Assembly (NCBI GenBank): GCA_016879935.1
Contig: JAACJQ010000200.1
Location: forward strand, 1-33,982
Length of the DNA stretch: 33,982 bases
Source: Archangiaceae bacterium
GTDB taxonomy: Bacteria > Myxococcota > Myxococcia > Myxococcales > Myxococcaceae
Reading direction: 5' to 3'
Numbering within the stretch: the stretch's first letter is position 1; every line of letters starts with the position of its first letter. Of this stretch, positions 999 through 11,586 are shown in pieces. Under the pieces are notes generated by a model. It was not told where the DNA came from and made no database searches. It saw nothing but the letters and a program-made list of their open reading frames with translations. The translations under genes were made by a program, and so were the position numbers.

Positions 999-1604
999 GT
1001 GAGCAGCGTCTACCCGAGCCAGTACCAGCTTCCCGAACTCACCGCGCACCTGGTCGCCCTCCTGGAGCGACGCCGCGCCGCCTTCGACGTGTGGGACGAG
1101 AAGACCGAGGCCGCGCTCACAGAGGCAGCGCAGGAGGCGCTCGTCGAGGCAGGCAAACAGTTCAAGGAGCTCGCCGCCGACGCTCCCTATTGGCAGCGCA
1201 CGACCGAGGCGCTGCTCGAGGTGGCGCTCCCGCGGTACTTTCGCCTCGCGAAGGAGCAGCACGCGCTCGAGAAGCGGGGCTACGGCGCATGGCGTGGAGG
1301 AGACTTCATCTCTCGCGCGGCCTTCGCCGGCATCGGCCTTGTCGTTGGCTTCATCATCTTGCGCACGGCCGTTCCCGACTGGCTCGAGCCGTTGCCGCTC
1401 GCGATGTTCATCGGTGGTCCGTTGATTCCCGATGCGCAGGCGTTCTTCGCGAAGCGCAAGTACTCGAAGCAGCTGCTCACGCTCGTCGAAGACATGAAGG
1501 CCGAAGCGAGCGACCGGCGCACGTACCAGCCGCTCGGCGTCGACGAAGGCGCGGTGACGGACTCGACGCCGCCGCAGAAGTCGTCGAACTCGGTGAAGGG
1601 ATGA
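999..1604 (+). CDS. small hypothetical membrane protein upstream of pseudokinase
   Basis: 201 residues if read from the GTG at 999. The frame is open further upstream to 894, but that extension runs over the start of the divergent transporter gene and reads as low-complexity Arg/Ser, so GTG 999 is preferred. The first 105 or so residues are helical and charged. They are followed by two probable membrane segments (about residues 109-127 and 131-152) and a polar tail. It shares an ATGA overlap with the pseudokinase gene at 1601, so the two are probably co-transcribed and translationally coupled. I do not recognise the family. It may be a membrane partner of the kinase-like protein, an inference from context only. 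Confidence 0.72.
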   Translation: MSSVYPSQYQLPELTAHLVALLERRRAAFDVWDEKTEAALTEAAQEALVEAGKQFKELAADAPYWQRTTEALLEVALPRYFRLAKEQHALEKRGYGAWRGGDFISRAAFAGIGLVVGFIILRTAVPDWLEPLPLAMFIGGPLIPDAQAFFAKRKYSKQLLTLVEDMKAEASDRRTYQPLGVDEGAVTDSTPPQKSSNSVKG

Positions 1605-2761
1605 GCACGCCGTACCAGCCGATTCCCGAGACGACGCAGGTGCACGTCGACCGGCTCGTGGGCTCGACGGTCGGCGCGTATCGGGTCGTTCGGCACGTCA
1701 CCGAAGGCCGCTACGGGACGATCTATCGCTGTGAGCACCTCGAGACGGGCGCGCCGACGACGCTCGAGGTCTTGCGCACGCAGCTCAAGGGTAACGATCA
1801 AGACGCGCGCGCGGCGAACGCCATCAAGAGCCCGGGCGTGGCGACGGTGACGGGCTTCGGCGATCTGCCCGATGGGCGGCATTGGCGAATGATGGAGCTG
1901 CTCGACGGAGAGTCGCTCGGTCAGCTGATCGCCAGGCGCGGCCCGATTCCGCCCGCCGAGGTGGTGAGCATTCTCGAGCGCGTGGCCACGGTGCTCGAGG
2001 CTTCACACGCGTGGGCGATCGTGCATGGCTCGCTGGGCGCGACGAACGTGTTCCTCGTCAAAGACTCGGTGAAGCTCACCGACTTCGGCCTCGCGCGAGA
2101 GCGCCTGACGGCCGCCGCCGATCTCCGCGCGCTGGGCTGGTTGGGCACGGCGCTGCTCGCGGGAGAAGACGCCGCCGATGGTCGGCGTGCTCCGCCGGGA
2201 ACGTCTGGCATCGCGCCGGTGCTTCGCGCGTTGATCGATGGGCAGCTGGCGACTGCGACCATCGCGCGAAAGGCGCTGCTCGATTCGGTCGCTGCCGCGG
2301 TCTCGCCGCCGCCGGTCGCGAAGTCGAAGCTGCCGCTCGCCCTTGGAGTCGCCGTGCTGCTCGTCGTGCTGATCGGCGCGGGCCTCGCCTTCATTCCCCG
2401 AGAGGCTCCCGCGCTCACGGATGACGAAGCGACGATGCTCGATGACGAAGATCCCTCGGCGGCCGAAGAGCCGCAGCTCGCTCCGCCGACCACCCTCGAG
2501 CCCGTGCCCGTCATCGAGAAACCCGTTCGCCCTTCGCGCCCCCGGTTGGGCAGCGCTCGACCGGTGCCCGAAGCCGCAGAGCTGCAGGTGCTGATCAACA
2601 GCCTCGAGCGTCGCCTGCAGAAGCGTGGCACCGGCGACGTCGATCAGGCGCTCTCGGTGCTCAACAAGCAGCGGCTGCGATTGACGGGTTCTCCGACCCT
2701 CAACGAGCGACGCGACGTGGTTCGGCAGCTCGCAGGCTGGCGCAGGAGCTACCTGCGCTGA
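1601..2761 (+). CDS. membrane-anchored serine/threonine pseudokinase
   Basis: 386 residues. The N-terminal part (about 20-235) follows the eukaryotic-like Ser/Thr kinase fold: YRVVRHVTEGRYGTIYRCEH as a degenerate glycine loop, then TTLEVLR, IVHGSLGATNVFL and KLTDFGLAR. The ATP-binding lysine of VAIK is Glu56. The catalytic HRD reads His142-Gly-Ser144, so the catalytic Asp is absent, while DFG is intact (161-163). The C-lobe is short, with no APE motif. One membrane helix at about 244-265 leads to an acidic, Pro-rich linker and a helical C-terminal domain outside the cytoplasm. The start is the ATG overlapping the upstream TGA. A catalytically dead, signal-sensing or scaffold role is inferred. 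Its stop abuts the stop of the convergent sigma gene. Confidence 0.85.
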   Translation: MSTPYQPIPETTQVHVDRLVGSTVGAYRVVRHVTEGRYGTIYRCEHLETGAPTTLEVLRTQLKGNDQDARAANAIKSPGVATVTGFGDLPDGRHWRMMELLDGESLGQLIARRGPIPPAEVVSILERVATVLEASHAWAIVHGSLGATNVFLVKDSVKLTDFGLARERLTAAADLRALGWLGTALLAGEDAADGRRAPPGTSGIAPVLRALIDGQLATATIARKALLDSVAAAVSPPPVAKSKLPLALGVAVLLVVLIGAGLAFIPREAPALTDDEATMLDDEDPSAAEEPQLAPPTTLEPVPVIEKPVRPSRPRLGSARPVPEAAELQVLINSLERRLQKRGTGDVDQALSVLNKQRLRLTGSPTLNERRDVVRQLAGWRRSYLR

Positions 2762-3970
2762 TCACCGCCCACCATCGAGCGTCGACAGCACGAGCGGGTA
2801 GTTCACGTTGATCGGCCCGTTGAGCGGCGGGTCGAAGCGCAGATCGGACAGCGACGAGAGAATGCAGCCCTCGAGTGGAACGTGGCCGATGCCGGCGTCT
2901 CCCACGGCGATCTGCGTGATGCGCCCTTCGACGGCGTCATCGGTGTCGATGGTGAAGGTGACGACGAGCCTGCCGCCCAGCCCGGGGTTCATCGGGAGCC
3001 ACGACTCGTAGCAGTCCTTCACCTCGGGAATCGCCGAGCGCATGGCCGCGCGAATGCCCTCACGATCGATCGCGAAGCGGGTGCCTCCGTCGCTCGCGGC
3101 GTTCGTCGTGACGCTCGTTCTTGCGCGGTCGCTGTCGGAGGCGCCGTGTGATGGCTCGGCTGGCGGCAGACTGGCGGCGGGCAGCCCCGTCGCAGGCGTG
3201 ACTGCGACCGCTTCCTGCAGTGGCCTCGCTGCCTGAGGCACCGCAACCGCGGTGGGGCCGGGCTTCGTCTTCACGGGAGCGCTCGAAGACGGCGACTGCG
3301 AGACCGACGTCGGCTCGGCGTGATGTGCCGACGACGGCCACGACCACCCGAGCGTTCCGGCCAACAGCAGACAGGCAGCGATGACAGCGAAGCGGATCTT
3401 CTTGTCCATGAGTGCGACTCCAGCGGTGAGCCATGGGCCTGCGGTCGGCAACACGAGCGGCGCCACCGACAGCCGCCACGCCTCGCGGCCCTCGGTGTCG
3501 AGCGAGACGCGCAAGCGGTCGAGCGCTTCCTTCAACCTCCAGCGAACCGTTCCCGCGGGAACCTGGAGCCGCTCGGCGATCTCGGCAGACGACAGGCCCT
3601 CGAAGAACCGCAGCAACACCGTCTGGCGAAACGGCTCTTCCAGTTCGAGCACGTGTCGAACGAGGCGCTGCTGAACCTGAACGCGACCGACGAGCTCCTC
3701 CGGCCCTGCGTCGTGCTCAGCCGGTGTCAGCGCTTCGTTTCTCGCTCTGATCGCCTCGTCTCGGAATCGCTTCCGGGCAGCGTTCTGCAGCACCCGCGCG
3801 AGCCACGGCCTGGCAGGCCGCTCCGAATCGGGAGGCGCCTTGATCGCAGACAGCCACAGCTCCTGCACCGCGTCGTCTCGATCATCACGGACCAGGCGCG
3901 TCGCAAGCACCCGAACCCACTCGGCATGTCGGAGCAGTTCGCTCACGTCGCTGGTCTGCCGGGAACTCAT
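2762..3970 (-). CDS. ECF sigma factor fused to TM segment and AgmX/PglI-like C-terminal domain
   Basis: 402 residues. Residues about 15-75 resemble sigma region 2 (DDAVQELWLSAIKAP, WLARVLQNAARKRFR). Residues 104-156 are region 4, with a clear helix-turn-helix (LSSAEIAERLQVPAGTVRWR). A hydrophobic helix at 192-210 and a long Ala/Pro/Ser linker follow. The last 100 residues (about 300-402: AIPEVKDCYESWL, GGRLVVTFTID, Cys320 and Cys369) resemble the AgmX/PglI C-terminal domain found in myxobacterial envelope proteins. The architecture implies a promoter-recognition module tethered to the inner membrane with a periplasmic sensor. A ribosome-binding site and ATG at codon 188 could also release the membrane part as a separate product. 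It is divergent from the SPFH operon across 82 bases. Confidence 0.85.
   Translation of the reverse strand: MSSRQTSDVSELLRHAEWVRVLATRLVRDDRDDAVQELWLSAIKAPPDSERPARPWLARVLQNAARKRFRDEAIRARNEALTPAEHDAGPEELVGRVQVQQRLVRHVLELEEPFRQTVLLRFFEGLSSAEIAERLQVPAGTVRWRLKEALDRLRVSLDTEGREAWRLSVAPLVLPTAGPWLTAGVALMDKKIRFAVIAACLLLAGTLGWSWPSSAHHAEPTSVSQSPSSSAPVKTKPGPTAVAVPQAARPLQEAVAVTPATGLPAASLPPAEPSHGASDSDRARTSVTTNAASDGGTRFAIDREGIRAAMRSAIPEVKDCYESWLPMNPGLGGRLVVTFTIDTDDAVEGRITQIAVGDAGIGHVPLEGCILSSLSDLRFDPPLNGPINVNYPLVLSTLDGGR
3407..3421 (-). promoter_or_regulatory. internal ribosome-binding site and ATG inside the sigma fusion gene
   Basis: On the minus strand GGAG lies 8 bases before the ATG at 3409, which is codon 188 of the sigma fusion. 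Translation from here would give a 215-residue protein that starts MDKKIRFAVIAACLL, i.e. just the membrane anchor, linker and periplasmic domain. Spacing and sequence are those of a normal start; use in the cell is unproven. Confidence 0.45.
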
Positions 3971-3991
3971 CGCCCCTTCCTATCCACGCCA

Positions 3992-4023
3992 CGTCGAAAG
4001 TGTTGGCGGCGGCAATTTCGACG
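3992..4023. promoter_or_regulatory. 8-bp inverted repeat, candidate operator between sigma and SPFH genes
   Basis: CGTCGAAA at 3992-3999 is matched by its exact reverse complement TTTCGACG at 4016-4023, with a 16-base spacer. It sits in the 82-base gap between two divergent starts (3970 and 4053). The position suits a dimeric regulator acting on one or both genes. No T-tract follows on either strand, so it is not an obvious terminator. Confidence 0.4.
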
Positions 4024-4052: not shown

Positions 4053-5102
4053 ATGACTCCAGCTGAACGTTTGCGCGGCACTCTGGTGAGGCGCGGTCGC
4101 TTCCTCTGGCCGTTGCTCGCCATCTTCCTGATCCTGGTCTTTGGCTACACCTCGTGCTCCTCGTACGTGCGCCCGGGGCAGTGGGGTGTGAAGCAGGTGA
4201 CGTTCGGCTCGGGCCAGGGCGTTCACACCGAGATCTACGAGCCGGGCCTCTATTTCCTCACGCCTGGCGCCGAGCGCATGCACCTGTTCCCGGCAGACCT
4301 GCAGGTGCTCGAGATGAGCGACGCGCAGGAGCCGTCGGCCCACATTCCCAACCTGCGCGCGGTGCCGGCGCTGAAGATCCAGACCTCCGAGGGCTACACG
4401 GTGTCGGTCGACGTCACCGTGCTCTACCGCGTCGACGATGCGTACAAGGTGATGACGCAGATCGGGCCGGGCCGGCTGTACGAAGACTCGGTCGTCATTC
4501 CGCGCACCGAGCAGCAGCTGCGGCGCACGTTCGGCGAGCTCGACGCCGAGGAGTTCTACAAAGGCGACACGCGCGAGAAGGCCGCGGAAGAAGCGCAGCG
4601 GCTGTTGATCGAAGACCTGTCGCCGCGCGGCATCAAGGTGACGCACGTACTCGTGCGCCAGTACCGCTACGACTCGCGCTACCAGGCCGCGATCGAGCAG
4701 CGGAAGATTCAGGACCAGACGGTCTTCAAGAACCAGGCAGAGGCGCTCGCCGCGCAGGCCGAAGCCGAGAAGAACAAGATCGTAGCCGAAGGCGCCGCGC
4801 TGGTCGAGGTCGAGTACGCCCGCGGCAAAGCCGAGGTCGAGAAGCTGCGCAGTGAGGCCGATCTCTACACGCGCACGAAGGCGGCTGAAGGTGAGCTCGC
4901 GGTTCGCCTGGCGAAGGCACAGGGCACCGAGCTCGAGAACAAGGCACTGCGCGGCGCAGGCAGCGAGAACATGGTCGGGCTCAAGATGGCTGACGTGCTC
5001 GAGGGCGTCGACGTGATCGTCGTGCCGAGCGACGGAGAGGGTGGAACGAACCCGCTCGATCTCAATCAGCTGCTCCGCCGCTTCGACGTGAGGGGTGAAT
5101 GA
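4053..5102 (+). CDS. SPFH/band 7 domain protein, membrane-anchored
   Basis: 349 residues from the ATG at 4053, with GGGGGA upstream. The frame is open further upstream to 3840, but that stretch overlaps the sigma gene and is not protein-like. A membrane helix at about 18-32 is followed by an SPFH domain (about 36-215) containing PGLYFLTPGAERMHLFPADLQ, VSVDVTVLYRV and LSPRGIKVTHVLVRQ. A charged coiled coil (about 220-310: QAEALAAQAEAEKNKIVAEG) follows, then a short conserved tail. This is the plan of HflK/HflC, prohibitin and stomatin proteins, which form large membrane-bound rings. It overlaps the next SPFH gene by ATGA, so the two are probably made in fixed ratio and may assemble together. 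The exact role is unknown. Confidence 0.88.
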   Translation: MTPAERLRGTLVRRGRFLWPLLAIFLILVFGYTSCSSYVRPGQWGVKQVTFGSGQGVHTEIYEPGLYFLTPGAERMHLFPADLQVLEMSDAQEPSAHIPNLRAVPALKIQTSEGYTVSVDVTVLYRVDDAYKVMTQIGPGRLYEDSVVIPRTEQQLRRTFGELDAEEFYKGDTREKAAEEAQRLLIEDLSPRGIKVTHVLVRQYRYDSRYQAAIEQRKIQDQTVFKNQAEALAAQAEAEKNKIVAEGAALVEVEYARGKAEVEKLRSEADLYTRTKAAEGELAVRLAKAQGTELENKALRGAGSENMVGLKMADVLEGVDVIVVPSDGEGGTNPLDLNQLLRRFDVRGE

Positions 5103-6115
5103 CCATGAAGACCTTTCACTTGATGGTCGCGGCAGTGGTCGTGTCGTCCGTGAGTGGCTGTGCGTGTCACTCGACCGATGCGAACGAGGTCGGCGTCCTC
5201 ACCAGAAAGCTCGCTCCGTTCGGCAAACGAGGTGTGCAGGAGGAGGTCTATGCCTCGGGCGCGACCTACTTCTTCGCGCCGATCATCACCGACTGGCACA
5301 CCTTCGAGACGAAGCTGCAGAACCTGCGAATGCAGAAGATGCCGGGTGCCGATGGCGTGATCGACGACGTCGAGTTCAAGACCGTCGACGGCAACGACAT
5401 CTCGGTCGACGTGACAGTCACCTGGCGCATCGACCCTGCGAAGGCGCCGCACGTGTTGCAGCGGGTGGGTGAGTCGACCGACGACGTGCAGGAGCGCCTC
5501 GTTCGTCCGGCCGCGCGTGCGTACGTGCGTGACGCGCTCAATCGCCTGCGCTCGGAGGACTTCTACGTGGCCGACAAACGGTTCGCCGCCGCCGAGGAGT
5601 CGCGCAAGCTGCTGCTGCTTGCGCTCGGGCCCGAGGGCGTGATCGTCGAGCAGGTCATTCTCGGCGAGCACCGGTTCGCGCCCGCATACGAAGAGGTGAT
5701 TCGCGAGAAGAAGCTGGCCGAGCAGAACGGCGAGAAGCTGAAGAGTGAAGCGCAGGCGGCGGCCGAGGAGTCGAAGCGAAACCTCGAGTCGGCGCGCGGC
5801 GTGGTGTCGAAGGACATCGCGACGGCGAAGGGCGAGCTCGAGCAGGCGAAGCTGGGGGCCGATGCGCAGTTGGTGAAGGCGAAGAACGAAGCGACGGCCT
5901 CGTTGACCGAAGCGAAGACGCGCGCCCAGTCGATCGAGAAGGAGAACGCGGCGCTCGGTGGTGCGGGCGGTCGCACGATGGTGAAGCTGAAGATCGCCGA
6001 GGCGCTGCAGGGCAAGCGCATCGTGATGATCCCGACGGGGAAGGGCGCGAACCTGCAGACGCTCGACGTGAACGATCTGATCAGCGTGAAGGCGGCTCAG
6101 AAGGTGACGAAGTAG
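5099..6115 (+). CDS. SPFH/band 7 domain lipoprotein
   Basis: 338 residues; the ATG at 5099 overlaps the TGA of the preceding SPFH gene, and a second in-frame ATG lies at 5105. The N-terminus is a lipoprotein signal ending in the lipobox VSGC (Cys21), unusual for a family normally held by a membrane helix. An SPFH-like domain spans about 28-200 (TKLQNLRMQKMPG, ISVDVTVTWRID, LGPEGVIVEQVILGEHR). A long Ala/Glu/Lys coiled coil (about 203-285) and a tail resembling that of its neighbour (GGRTMVKLKIAEALQGKRIVMIP) follow. The matching ends suggest an old duplication and a hetero-oligomer in the periplasm. Asp/Gly at +2 cannot be judged from Cys-Ala, so retention in the inner membrane is not predicted. 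Confidence 0.85.
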   Translation: MTMKTFHLMVAAVVVSSVSGCACHSTDANEVGVLTRKLAPFGKRGVQEEVYASGATYFFAPIITDWHTFETKLQNLRMQKMPGADGVIDDVEFKTVDGNDISVDVTVTWRIDPAKAPHVLQRVGESTDDVQERLVRPAARAYVRDALNRLRSEDFYVADKRFAAAEESRKLLLLALGPEGVIVEQVILGEHRFAPAYEEVIREKKLAEQNGEKLKSEAQAAAEESKRNLESARGVVSKDIATAKGELEQAKLGADAQLVKAKNEATASLTEAKTRAQSIEKENAALGGAGGRTMVKLKIAEALQGKRIVMIPTGKGANLQTLDVNDLISVKAAQKVTK

Positions 6116-9956: not shown

Positions 9957-10537
9957 CGGATTCGACGCTGCCCGGCCACGCACGGCCCGTGCACGCCCGC
10001 ACCCTGTCACCCGCGCTGTCGAGGCCCGAGCCGATCGACTTCGACACGCTCTACGACCAGACCGCTGAGCTCGCGTTTCGGGTGCTCGGCGGCATGGGCG
10101 TGCGGGCTGACGAGCTCGATGACGCGCTCCAGGACGTGTTCGTCGTCGCGCACCGGAGGCTGCCCGAGTTTCGCGGTGACTCGAAGCCCTCGACGTGGGT
10201 CTCCGGCATCGCCGTTCGGGTCGCGCACGACTATCGCCGCAGACACTCGCGCAAACCGAGTGAGCCGCTCGAACCGCACGCGCAGGGTCTGGTCGCGCCG
10301 GGAGAGCTGCCTGACACGAGCTTGATCCGGGCCCAGGCGCTCGACTCGGTGCAGACGTTTCTCGAGCAGCTGCCTGCCCCGCAGCGTGAGGTGTTCGTGC
10401 TGGCCGAGCTCGAGCAGCAGTCGGCTCCGGAGATCGCCCTGTCGCTGCAGGTGCCGCTCAACACCATCTATTCCCGGCTGCGGTTGGCGCGAGCCCACTT
10501 CGAAGATTGGGTGCAGGCGCGTGGAGGTGAAGAATGA
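9953..10537 (+). CDS. RNA polymerase ECF-type sigma factor
   Basis: 194 residues from the TTG at 9953, which overlaps the upstream stop codon; a GTG at about 9989 is an alternative. Region 2 lies at about residues 27-95: FDTLYDQTAELAFRVLGGMG, then DELDDALQDVFVVAHRRLPEF and STWVSGIAVRVAHDYRRRH. Region 4 lies at about 125-185: LPAPQREVFVLAELEQQSAPEIALSLQVPLNTIYSRLRLAR, given here in pieces QREVFVLAELEQQ and NTIYSRLRLAR, with the recognition helix-turn-helix between them. It directs RNA polymerase to a small regulon, probably including its own operon. It overlaps the downstream gene by ATGA; that product, with a membrane helix, is the natural candidate for its regulator. Confidence 0.92.
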   Translation: MTDSTLPGHARPVHARTLSPALSRPEPIDFDTLYDQTAELAFRVLGGMGVRADELDDALQDVFVVAHRRLPEFRGDSKPSTWVSGIAVRVAHDYRRRHSRKPSEPLEPHAQGLVAPGELPDTSLIRAQALDSVQTFLEQLPAPQREVFVLAELEQQSAPEIALSLQVPLNTIYSRLRLARAHFEDWVQARGGEE

Positions 10538-11586
10538 CGCCGTTGAGTCGCAGAGCGACCGACGTGTTGCAGGAGGCGCGAGCCCAGCGCCCGCAACTCG
10601 ATCGCCGTCGGAAGACCGCTGTGAAAGAGGCGGTCATGCTGTCGGTCGCAGGGGCAGCCACGACGGGCGCCTCGTCAGCCGAGTTGGCGAGTGGAGCGAA
10701 GGCCGCCTCGTGGGCGGCCACGACGACTGGGAAGATCGTGGTGGGCCTTGCCGCGGCGATCGTCGGTTCGTCGGCGACGGTCGGCGTGATGAGCGCGCGG
10801 AAAGCGATGGTCCGATCTGCAGTGCCGAGAGAGGTGAAGCCGAACGTCGGGAATCGGGCGACCGCCGCCGCGATTCCGACCGTCGCGGAGAAGGGTCCGA
10901 GCACCGCGGGGAATCCGACCGTCGCTGCGATTCCGACTGTCGCCGCGATTCCGACCGTCGCCGTGATTCCGACCCCTGCCGAAATTCCAACCGTCACCGC
11001 GATTTCGACCGTCGCAAAGAGCTCGAACACTGCGAGGAATCCGACCGTCGTCGCGAATCCGTCCGCCGCGAATCCGTCCGCCGCGAATCCGTCCGCCGCG
11101 AATCCGTCCGCCGCGAATCCGTCCGCCGCGATTCCGTCCGCCGCGATTCCGTCCGCCGCGAATCCGTCCGCCGCGAATCCGTCCGCCGCGATTCCGCCCG
11201 TGAATCGCTCCGAGACGAACTCCGCGCTCTCCGTGCGCCACATCGCGCCGCTCCCCGAGCGCCAAGTCGTCGATTCCTCCCCTGGCGCTCCCCGCAACGC
11301 CGCACCCGACTCGTCGCTCCCGTTGCGCGACGAACTCAGCGTGCTGCGTCTCGCAATGACCCACCACGACGCTGGCAATGACGCCGCCGCCCTCCTCAAC
11401 CTCGACGAGTACCAGGCTCGTTTCCCAGCAGGCGTGATGCTGGTCGAGGCACGCGTCCTGCGCGTGCTGGTGCTGTGTGCGCTCGATCGTCAGCAGGAAG
11501 CCACCTCGCTGCTCCGAGACCTTCAGCGCAGCACGCCGACCTCTCCAGCGCTGCAGCGGCTCTCGTCCTCCTGTGCGGCGCGGTGA
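10534..11586 (+). CDS. membrane protein with NPSAA repeats and TPR-like C-terminus, partner of sigma factor
   Basis: 350 residues; the ATG overlaps the sigma stop codon. Residues 1-60 are cytoplasmic, and a membrane helix lies at about 66-83 (KIVVGLAAAIVGSSATVGV). Residues about 110-225 are low-complexity: degenerate IPTVA units, then nine near-identical pentapeptides (seven NPSAA and two IPSAA, residues 175-219). The C-terminal 90 residues (ELSVLRLAMTHHDAGNDAAA, then a helix-rich stretch with FPAGVMLVEARVLRVLVLCAL) resemble one or two TPR-type helix pairs found in myxobacterial proteins encoded beside ECF sigma genes. The likely role is membrane control of the sigma factor, by inference. The repeat would act as a stiff periplasmic spacer of variable length. 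Confidence 0.78.
   Translation: MTPLSRRATDVLQEARAQRPQLDRRRKTAVKEAVMLSVAGAATTGASSAELASGAKAASWAATTTGKIVVGLAAAIVGSSATVGVMSARKAMVRSAVPREVKPNVGNRATAAAIPTVAEKGPSTAGNPTVAAIPTVAAIPTVAVIPTPAEIPTVTAISTVAKSSNTARNPTVVANPSAANPSAANPSAANPSAANPSAAIPSAAIPSAANPSAANPSAAIPPVNRSETNSALSVRHIAPLPERQVVDSSPGAPRNAAPDSSLPLRDELSVLRLAMTHHDAGNDAAALLNLDEYQARFPAGVMLVEARVLRVLVLCALDRQQEATSLLRDLQRSTPTSPALQRLSSSCAAR
11056..11190 (+). repeat. 15-bp tandem repeat, nine copies, coding for pentapeptides
   Basis: Nine adjacent 15-base units of AATCCGTCCGCCGCG, two of them with ATT in place of AAT, run from 11056 to 11190. The unit is a multiple of three, so copy-number change would lengthen or shorten the protein without a frameshift. 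More diverged units of the same length (ATTCCGACCGTCGCG-like) extend upstream to about 10870. Confidence 0.95.

Follow-up and report, generated by a model that had tools for sequence, protein, structure and literature searches.

A membrane-fused ECF sigma factor with an AgmX/PglI-type tail and conserved internal start signals in a myxobacterium

Few sigma factors are fused to a membrane sensor of their own, and most of these are explained by proteolysis. A gene of this kind in an Archangiaceae bacterium raises the question of whether one reading frame yields a single tethered protein or two products. The window (the whole 33,982-nt stretch of DNA that was analysed) carries a 402-codon gene, described in the first-pass annotation as sigma regions 2 and 4 joined to a transmembrane (TM) helix and an AgmX/PglI-like domain with two cysteines. 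GGAG 8 nt before an ATG at codon 188 had led to the proposal that both the fusion and a separate membrane protein are made.

Domain architecture of the fusion gene

The ORF list and translation place the gene on the minus strand, from an ATG at window position 3970 to 2762, and all its features are given on that strand. No coding was found in the corresponding frame of the plus strand across 2762-3970. The ORF, its translation and its orthologues give the order ECF sigma, hydrophobic linker, TM helix, Pro-rich linker and myxo_SS_tail over 402 aa. Sigma-70 region 2 (residues 14-72; 3755-3931; PF04542, 33.3 bits, cut-off 24) and region 4 (residues 110-154; 3509-3643; PF04545, 40.9 bits, cut-off 24.1) score above their curated cut-offs, and TIGR02937 matches residues 14-156 with 63.1 bits against a cut-off of 42.9. 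Sigma70_r3 reaches only 10.5 bits in the Pfam search, below its cut-off of 25.3. The presence of regions 2 and 4 without region 3 identifies the protein as an ECF sigma-70 factor.

The sigma part is followed by a conserved hydrophobic linker, apparent in alignments (residues 165-187; 3410-3478; W..L..APL.LP.AGPWLTAGVAL). A single TM helix lies at about residues 192-210 (3341-3397), with MDKK or MEKK just before it. Hydropathy shows one hydrophobic TM core, with 192 as its first residue, and the full-length model has a helix at 190-207; with an overall pLDDT of 51, a low-confidence value, that model was too poor to be interpreted as a fold. The next segment, at about residues 211-295 (3086-3340), is rich in Pro, Ala and Ser and poorly conserved, with pLDDT mostly <50, and is expected on the periplasmic side. 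The C-terminal domain (residues 301-395; 2786-3070), with C320 and C369, matches the AgmX/PglI profile NF033768 'myxo_SS_tail' with 60.2 bits (cut-off 40), and would face the envelope. Profile matches, hydropathy and translation thus agree with the architecture first annotated.

Two classes of known fused sigma factors were considered for family assignment. Membership in ECF48/52/53 was rejected because there is no ZAS between sigma region 4 and the TM helix: no ZAS or zinc-finger family was found in the protein at E up to 1 (Pfam), and residues 157-187 contain neither Cys nor His. An IutY-type FecI-FecR fusion (ECF243) was rejected because no FecR family was found at E up to 1 (Pfam), the tail being NF033768 instead.

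NF033768 matches all ten related tails compared, and TIGR01352 (TonB_Cterm) matches three of them. C320 and C369 are invariant in all ten, and the sequences suggest that the tail is a candidate disulfide-capable domain. The tail modelled by itself reached a pLDDT of 78, and TonB/TolA C-terminal domains fill most of the leading rows when this model is compared with known folds. The scores are modest and below usual significance (Foldseek E 0.03, TM 0.39; VIA Z 4-6), the TonB matches by sequence are weak, and the likeness of the modelled tail to a TonB/TolA C-terminal domain is tentative. If it holds, the tail, the single TM helix and the Pro-rich linker together give the layout of a TonB/TolA protein, with a sigma factor at the cytoplasmic end. 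A further difference from TonB/TolA proteins is that the SxxxH motif for ExbBD/TolQR coupling is absent from the TM region (MDKKIRFAVIAACLLLAGTLGWSW), which lacks any His. With this ExbBD-coupling motif missing, energised action is not expected.

Relatives, neighbours and known counterparts

Three further genomes of the genus (G136, G134 and G133) contain orthologues of the whole fusion, with 55-61% identity over the full length. A further copy, in G131 (L039/L063), has its frame broken at either end of the sigma part, lacks a recognisable tail, and represents either a decayed copy or poor assembly. It was set aside as decayed, and "intact" refers below to the window gene and the three orthologues. 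The four intact genes form one lineage, two of them being near relatives (90% identical).

More distant fusions in G052 (L066, 8530-11973) and G138 (L067, 5471-8125) have a sigma domain ~40% identical to that of the window gene, a TM helix at the same place and a related CCAACA-N15-GSA promoter. Their periplasmic part consists of 5-6 CarboxypepD_reg repeats and a PDZ domain, C-terminal in both, in contrast to the myxo_SS_tail of the window gene. When 195 genomes of the phylum were searched with a profile, seven members had E <1e-50, followed by a wide gap to E ~1e-22, and the borderline match beyond these seven lacks a tail. Long open frames among the weaker matches were mostly upstream read-through, and the sole true extra fusion was that of G159.

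Related genera also contain stand-alone TM and tail genes without a sigma part (L031 in G049, L033 in G051, L035 in G052). Their products start MRWRVL... at the position of the fusion's internal Met. L031 and L033 have a GroEL-like gene, a DnaC-like ATPase gene and a small lipoprotein-like gene as neighbours.

In the window, a kinase gene and an SPFH gene flank the fusion gene. The protein-kinase-like gene (1601-2761, plus strand), with a C-terminal TM region, has its stop codon at 2759-2761, abutting the convergent fusion-gene stop at 2762. The tandem SPFH/Band-7-type genes (4053-5102 and 5099-6115, plus strand) have relatives in G132, G133 and G136 at ~90% identity. The pair lies elsewhere in these three genomes, with no sigma fusion gene beside it, indicating that the fusion gene is an insert in the window. 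No conserved neighbours of the fusion gene were found, and synteny rules out the flanking kinase and SPFH genes as functional partners.

A second ECF sigma gene lies at 10058-10537 (plus strand), with Sigma70_r2 and r4 above cut-off. It shares an ATGA overlap with a 350-aa gene (10534-11586, plus strand) whose product has a possible TM helix and a series of five-residue repeats of the NPSAA type. This pair is a two-gene counterpart of the fused arrangement.

Membrane-fused ECF factors are already known. IutY of Pseudomonas putida (ECF243), a FecI-FecR fusion, shares with the window gene an ECF sigma domain, a TM helix and a periplasmic domain in one polypeptide, and its release by proteolysis via Prc and RseP is expected (PMC8999054). 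It carries a FecR/anti-sigma domain, whereas none was found in the window gene, whose tail is of the AgmX/PglI type (TonB/TolA-like); nor does the section consulted describe for IutY a conserved internal start, which is a feature of the window gene. SCO4117 of Streptomyces coelicolor (ECF52) has the same order of sigma, TM helix, Pro-rich extracytoplasmic linker and C-terminal domain. PMC5826349 and PMC8999054 propose positive autoregulation for it and describe ECF52 as exclusive to Actinobacteria, with a ZAS before the TM helix and a carbohydrate-binding tail, both of which the window gene lacks. IutY and SCO4117 show that release can be a means of regulating ECF sigma factors of the fused type.

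The closest layout outside sigma factors is that of GltG/PglI and GltJ/AgmX of Myxococcus xanthus, which likewise join a cytoplasmic N-terminal domain, a TM helix, a Pro-rich linker and a myxo_SS_tail; the cytoplasmic part is an FHA or motility domain in those proteins and an ECF sigma factor in the window gene (PMC3169522). Unlike these genes, the window gene has no gliding cluster in the examined neighbourhood.

Start signals at the sigma/anchor border

The GGAG (3421-3418), which resembles a Shine-Dalgarno (SD) sequence, lies 8 nt 5' of the ATG of codon 188 (3409-3407) at the border between the sigma part and the anchor, as annotated. Initiation here would yield a 215-residue protein of TM helix and tail. 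In other genomes, where conservation was looked for, the ATG is kept in five of five same-genus copies, including the broken one in G131, and in the distant G052 fusion. All four intact copies retain the GGAG, and G052 has AAAGGAG-8-ATG at the same border. The boundary codons are GGA-GTC-GCA-CTC-ATG in the window gene, GGA-GTT-GCC-CTG-ATG in G136 and G134, GGA-GTC-GTC-CTC-ATG in G133, GGG-GTT-GCG-CTC-ATG in the broken G131 copy, and AAA-GGA-GCG-CTG-TTC-ATG in G052. Of the 15 Gly columns that are conserved, Gly184 is the sole one with GGA in all four orthologues, and G052 has GGA there too; GGC is the commonest Gly codon in these genes, with GGA making up roughly a fifth, and other synonymous sites are about half diverged among the orthologues. 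The border Met is absent from the sigma-TM fusions of G138, which has a CTG codon behind GGGAG, and G159, and the internal-start feature is therefore not universal.

In the window gene, no ATG in any frame other than that of codon 188 reaches an anti-SD energy of -5.9. Across five genes the internal site has energies of -5.9 to -6.6, and in every gene it is either the strongest ATG site or one of a strong pair. SD strength alone did not differ significantly from that of synonymous shuffles, gene by gene (P 0.15-0.41). The mRNA around the internal ATG falls within the least-structured 2, 22, 5, 4 and 4% of codons in the five genes, and is less structured than synonymous shuffles with P values of 0.07, 0.34, 0.05, 0.04 and 0.03. 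The low structure is partly due to synonymous codon choice, beyond the amino-acid constraint.

As controls, 53 ORFs with the first TM helix after residue 120 were taken from three genomes of the genus, covering ~0.8 Mb in total. A Met near the TM helix was present in 12, and a border Met plus an SD of -5.0 or better in 2. These two look like overextended ORFs, with a non-coding-like upstream frame and a border Met that is probably the true start. The control TM borders (n = 53) showed no lack of mRNA structure (median percentile 0.52). We conclude that codon 188 carries the marks of a real initiation site, in few independent lineages and with G138 and G159 lacking the Met. The dual-product proposal is partly supported: the loss of GGAG/ATG among homologues that would have spoken against it was not found, and it is strengthened by the conserved start signals, the low mRNA structure and the rarity of both in controls, and weakened by the two fusions without a border Met.

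Promoter element and proposed mode of action

A conserved promoter-like element, CCAACACTT-N12-GGATAGGAAGG, lies at 3975-4006 on the minus strand (-35-like part 4006-3998, -10-like part 3985-3979). Neither this element nor the TonB/TolA-like character of the tail featured in the first-pass annotation. The pattern CCAAC(A/G)-N15-GGATAGGAAGG occurs just upstream of the first ATG in all four intact genes, and related elements are present in G138 (CCAACACTT-N12-GCATCAT) and G052 (CCAACACCC-N12-GCAACAT). The common form CCAAC-N16-G(G/C)A is found in six genes, including the two fusions with only ~40% sigma identity. The AAC core and 16-nt spacing are typical of ECF promoters. Because the gene itself encodes an ECF factor, autoregulation is the simplest reading, and the conserved element suggests that the gene may be transcribed by its own sigma domain.

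In each of the six genes, the -35-like element opens 36-39 nt ahead of the ATG. Transcription is thus expected to start at the ATG or a few bases before it, suggesting an mRNA that is leaderless or nearly so. Against a strictly leaderless mRNA stands the AGGAAGG beside the first ATG in the genus, which could act as an SD. The full motif occurs once per genome in each of four genomes, so that, as far as this pattern can detect, the sigma factor has no strong target that can be recognised other than its own gene. At two mismatches, matches were no more numerous than with a reversed control in the four genomes, and no further regulon targets can be named.

From the architecture, internal start signals and promoter conservation established in these sequences, we hypothesize, with a probability of roughly 55%, a self-transcribed, tethered sigma factor that is released by proteolysis and accompanied by a second, anchor-sensor product. 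The sigma domain would read the ECF-type promoter CCAACA-N15-GGA to give the mRNA. Translation from the first ATG would produce the full-length sigma factor, tethered to the inner membrane by one helix, with its Pro-rich arm and its TonB/TolA-CTD-like, disulfide-capable domain facing the envelope. By analogy with IutY-type precedents, an envelope signal may trigger proteolysis at or near the hydrophobic linker or the TM helix, and the freed sigma domain would make more of its own mRNA in a self-amplifying manner. The internal GGAG-ATG at codon 188 would add the 215-residue anchor and tail, which could compete for an envelope partner or protease; alternatively, this sigma-free product may be the bulk structural form, on which the full-length form merely reports.

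A more specific version, which we regard as doubtful, assigns two modes of initiation to two proteins from one self-transcribed, (near-)leaderless mRNA. The first ATG would be read in a leaderless manner to give the tethered sigma-sensor, and the SD-led internal ATG to give the free sensor or anchor. The product ratio would set the response of a small ECF family whose sole strong target is its own promoter.

The simplest alternative, possible although we consider it unlikely, is a single product, a tethered sigma factor freed by proteolysis. The Met and lysines before the TM helix may be conserved because the protein needs them, as membrane-flanking charge, and Gly184 as part of the hydrophobic linker, with GGAG arising as a by-product of Gly-Val codons. 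This would agree with SD energies no better than those of shuffled genes, with the G138 and G159 fusions managing without a border Met, and with the explanation of the known fused factors (IutY and ECF52, in the parts of the sources covered) without an internal start. It does not account for Gly184 being invariantly GGA where GGC dominates, for a lack of mRNA structure exceeding the amino-acid constraint, or for the absence of the signature from the 53 control TM proteins, bar the two apparent true starts.

The same signals could be unused leftovers of a recent gene fusion, in which the loss of a stop codon joined an ECF sigma gene to an overlapping downstream TM and tail gene. The stand-alone TM and tail genes of relatives and the two-gene version in the window, overlapping by ATGA at 10534-10537, would fit such an origin. 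An unused signal should decay where other synonymous sites are about half diverged, and the persistence of these signals in the differently built G052 fusion and in orthologues of only 55-61% identity makes this improbable. A role in elongation is more improbable still. GGAG, positioned just ahead of the TM segment, might slow the ribosome just before the helix emerges, aiding membrane targeting or sigma folding, with Met188 being incidental. SD-induced ribosome pausing is disputed, and a pause requires neither an ATG nor unstructured mRNA, yet both are conserved; moreover, no comparable SD-ATG placement was found in the 53 controls, bar the two likely true starts.

A literature search covering few subscription papers found no description of this architecture or of an internal start in a sigma-membrane fusion. 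As far as the searched literature shows, three features are apparently undescribed: a sigma factor bearing an AgmX/PglI, TonB/TolA-like tail, a conserved start at the seam, and a shared promoter of the near-leaderless kind. If the self-transcribed, two-product reading is true, the conserved seam start would mean that a fusion of this kind can also supply a free sensor, and one gene could hold a signal transducer together with its competitor or structural partner. A TonB/TolA-like domain, possibly reaching the outer membrane and placed directly on a transcription factor, suggests envelope-contact signalling without a separate anti-sigma factor.
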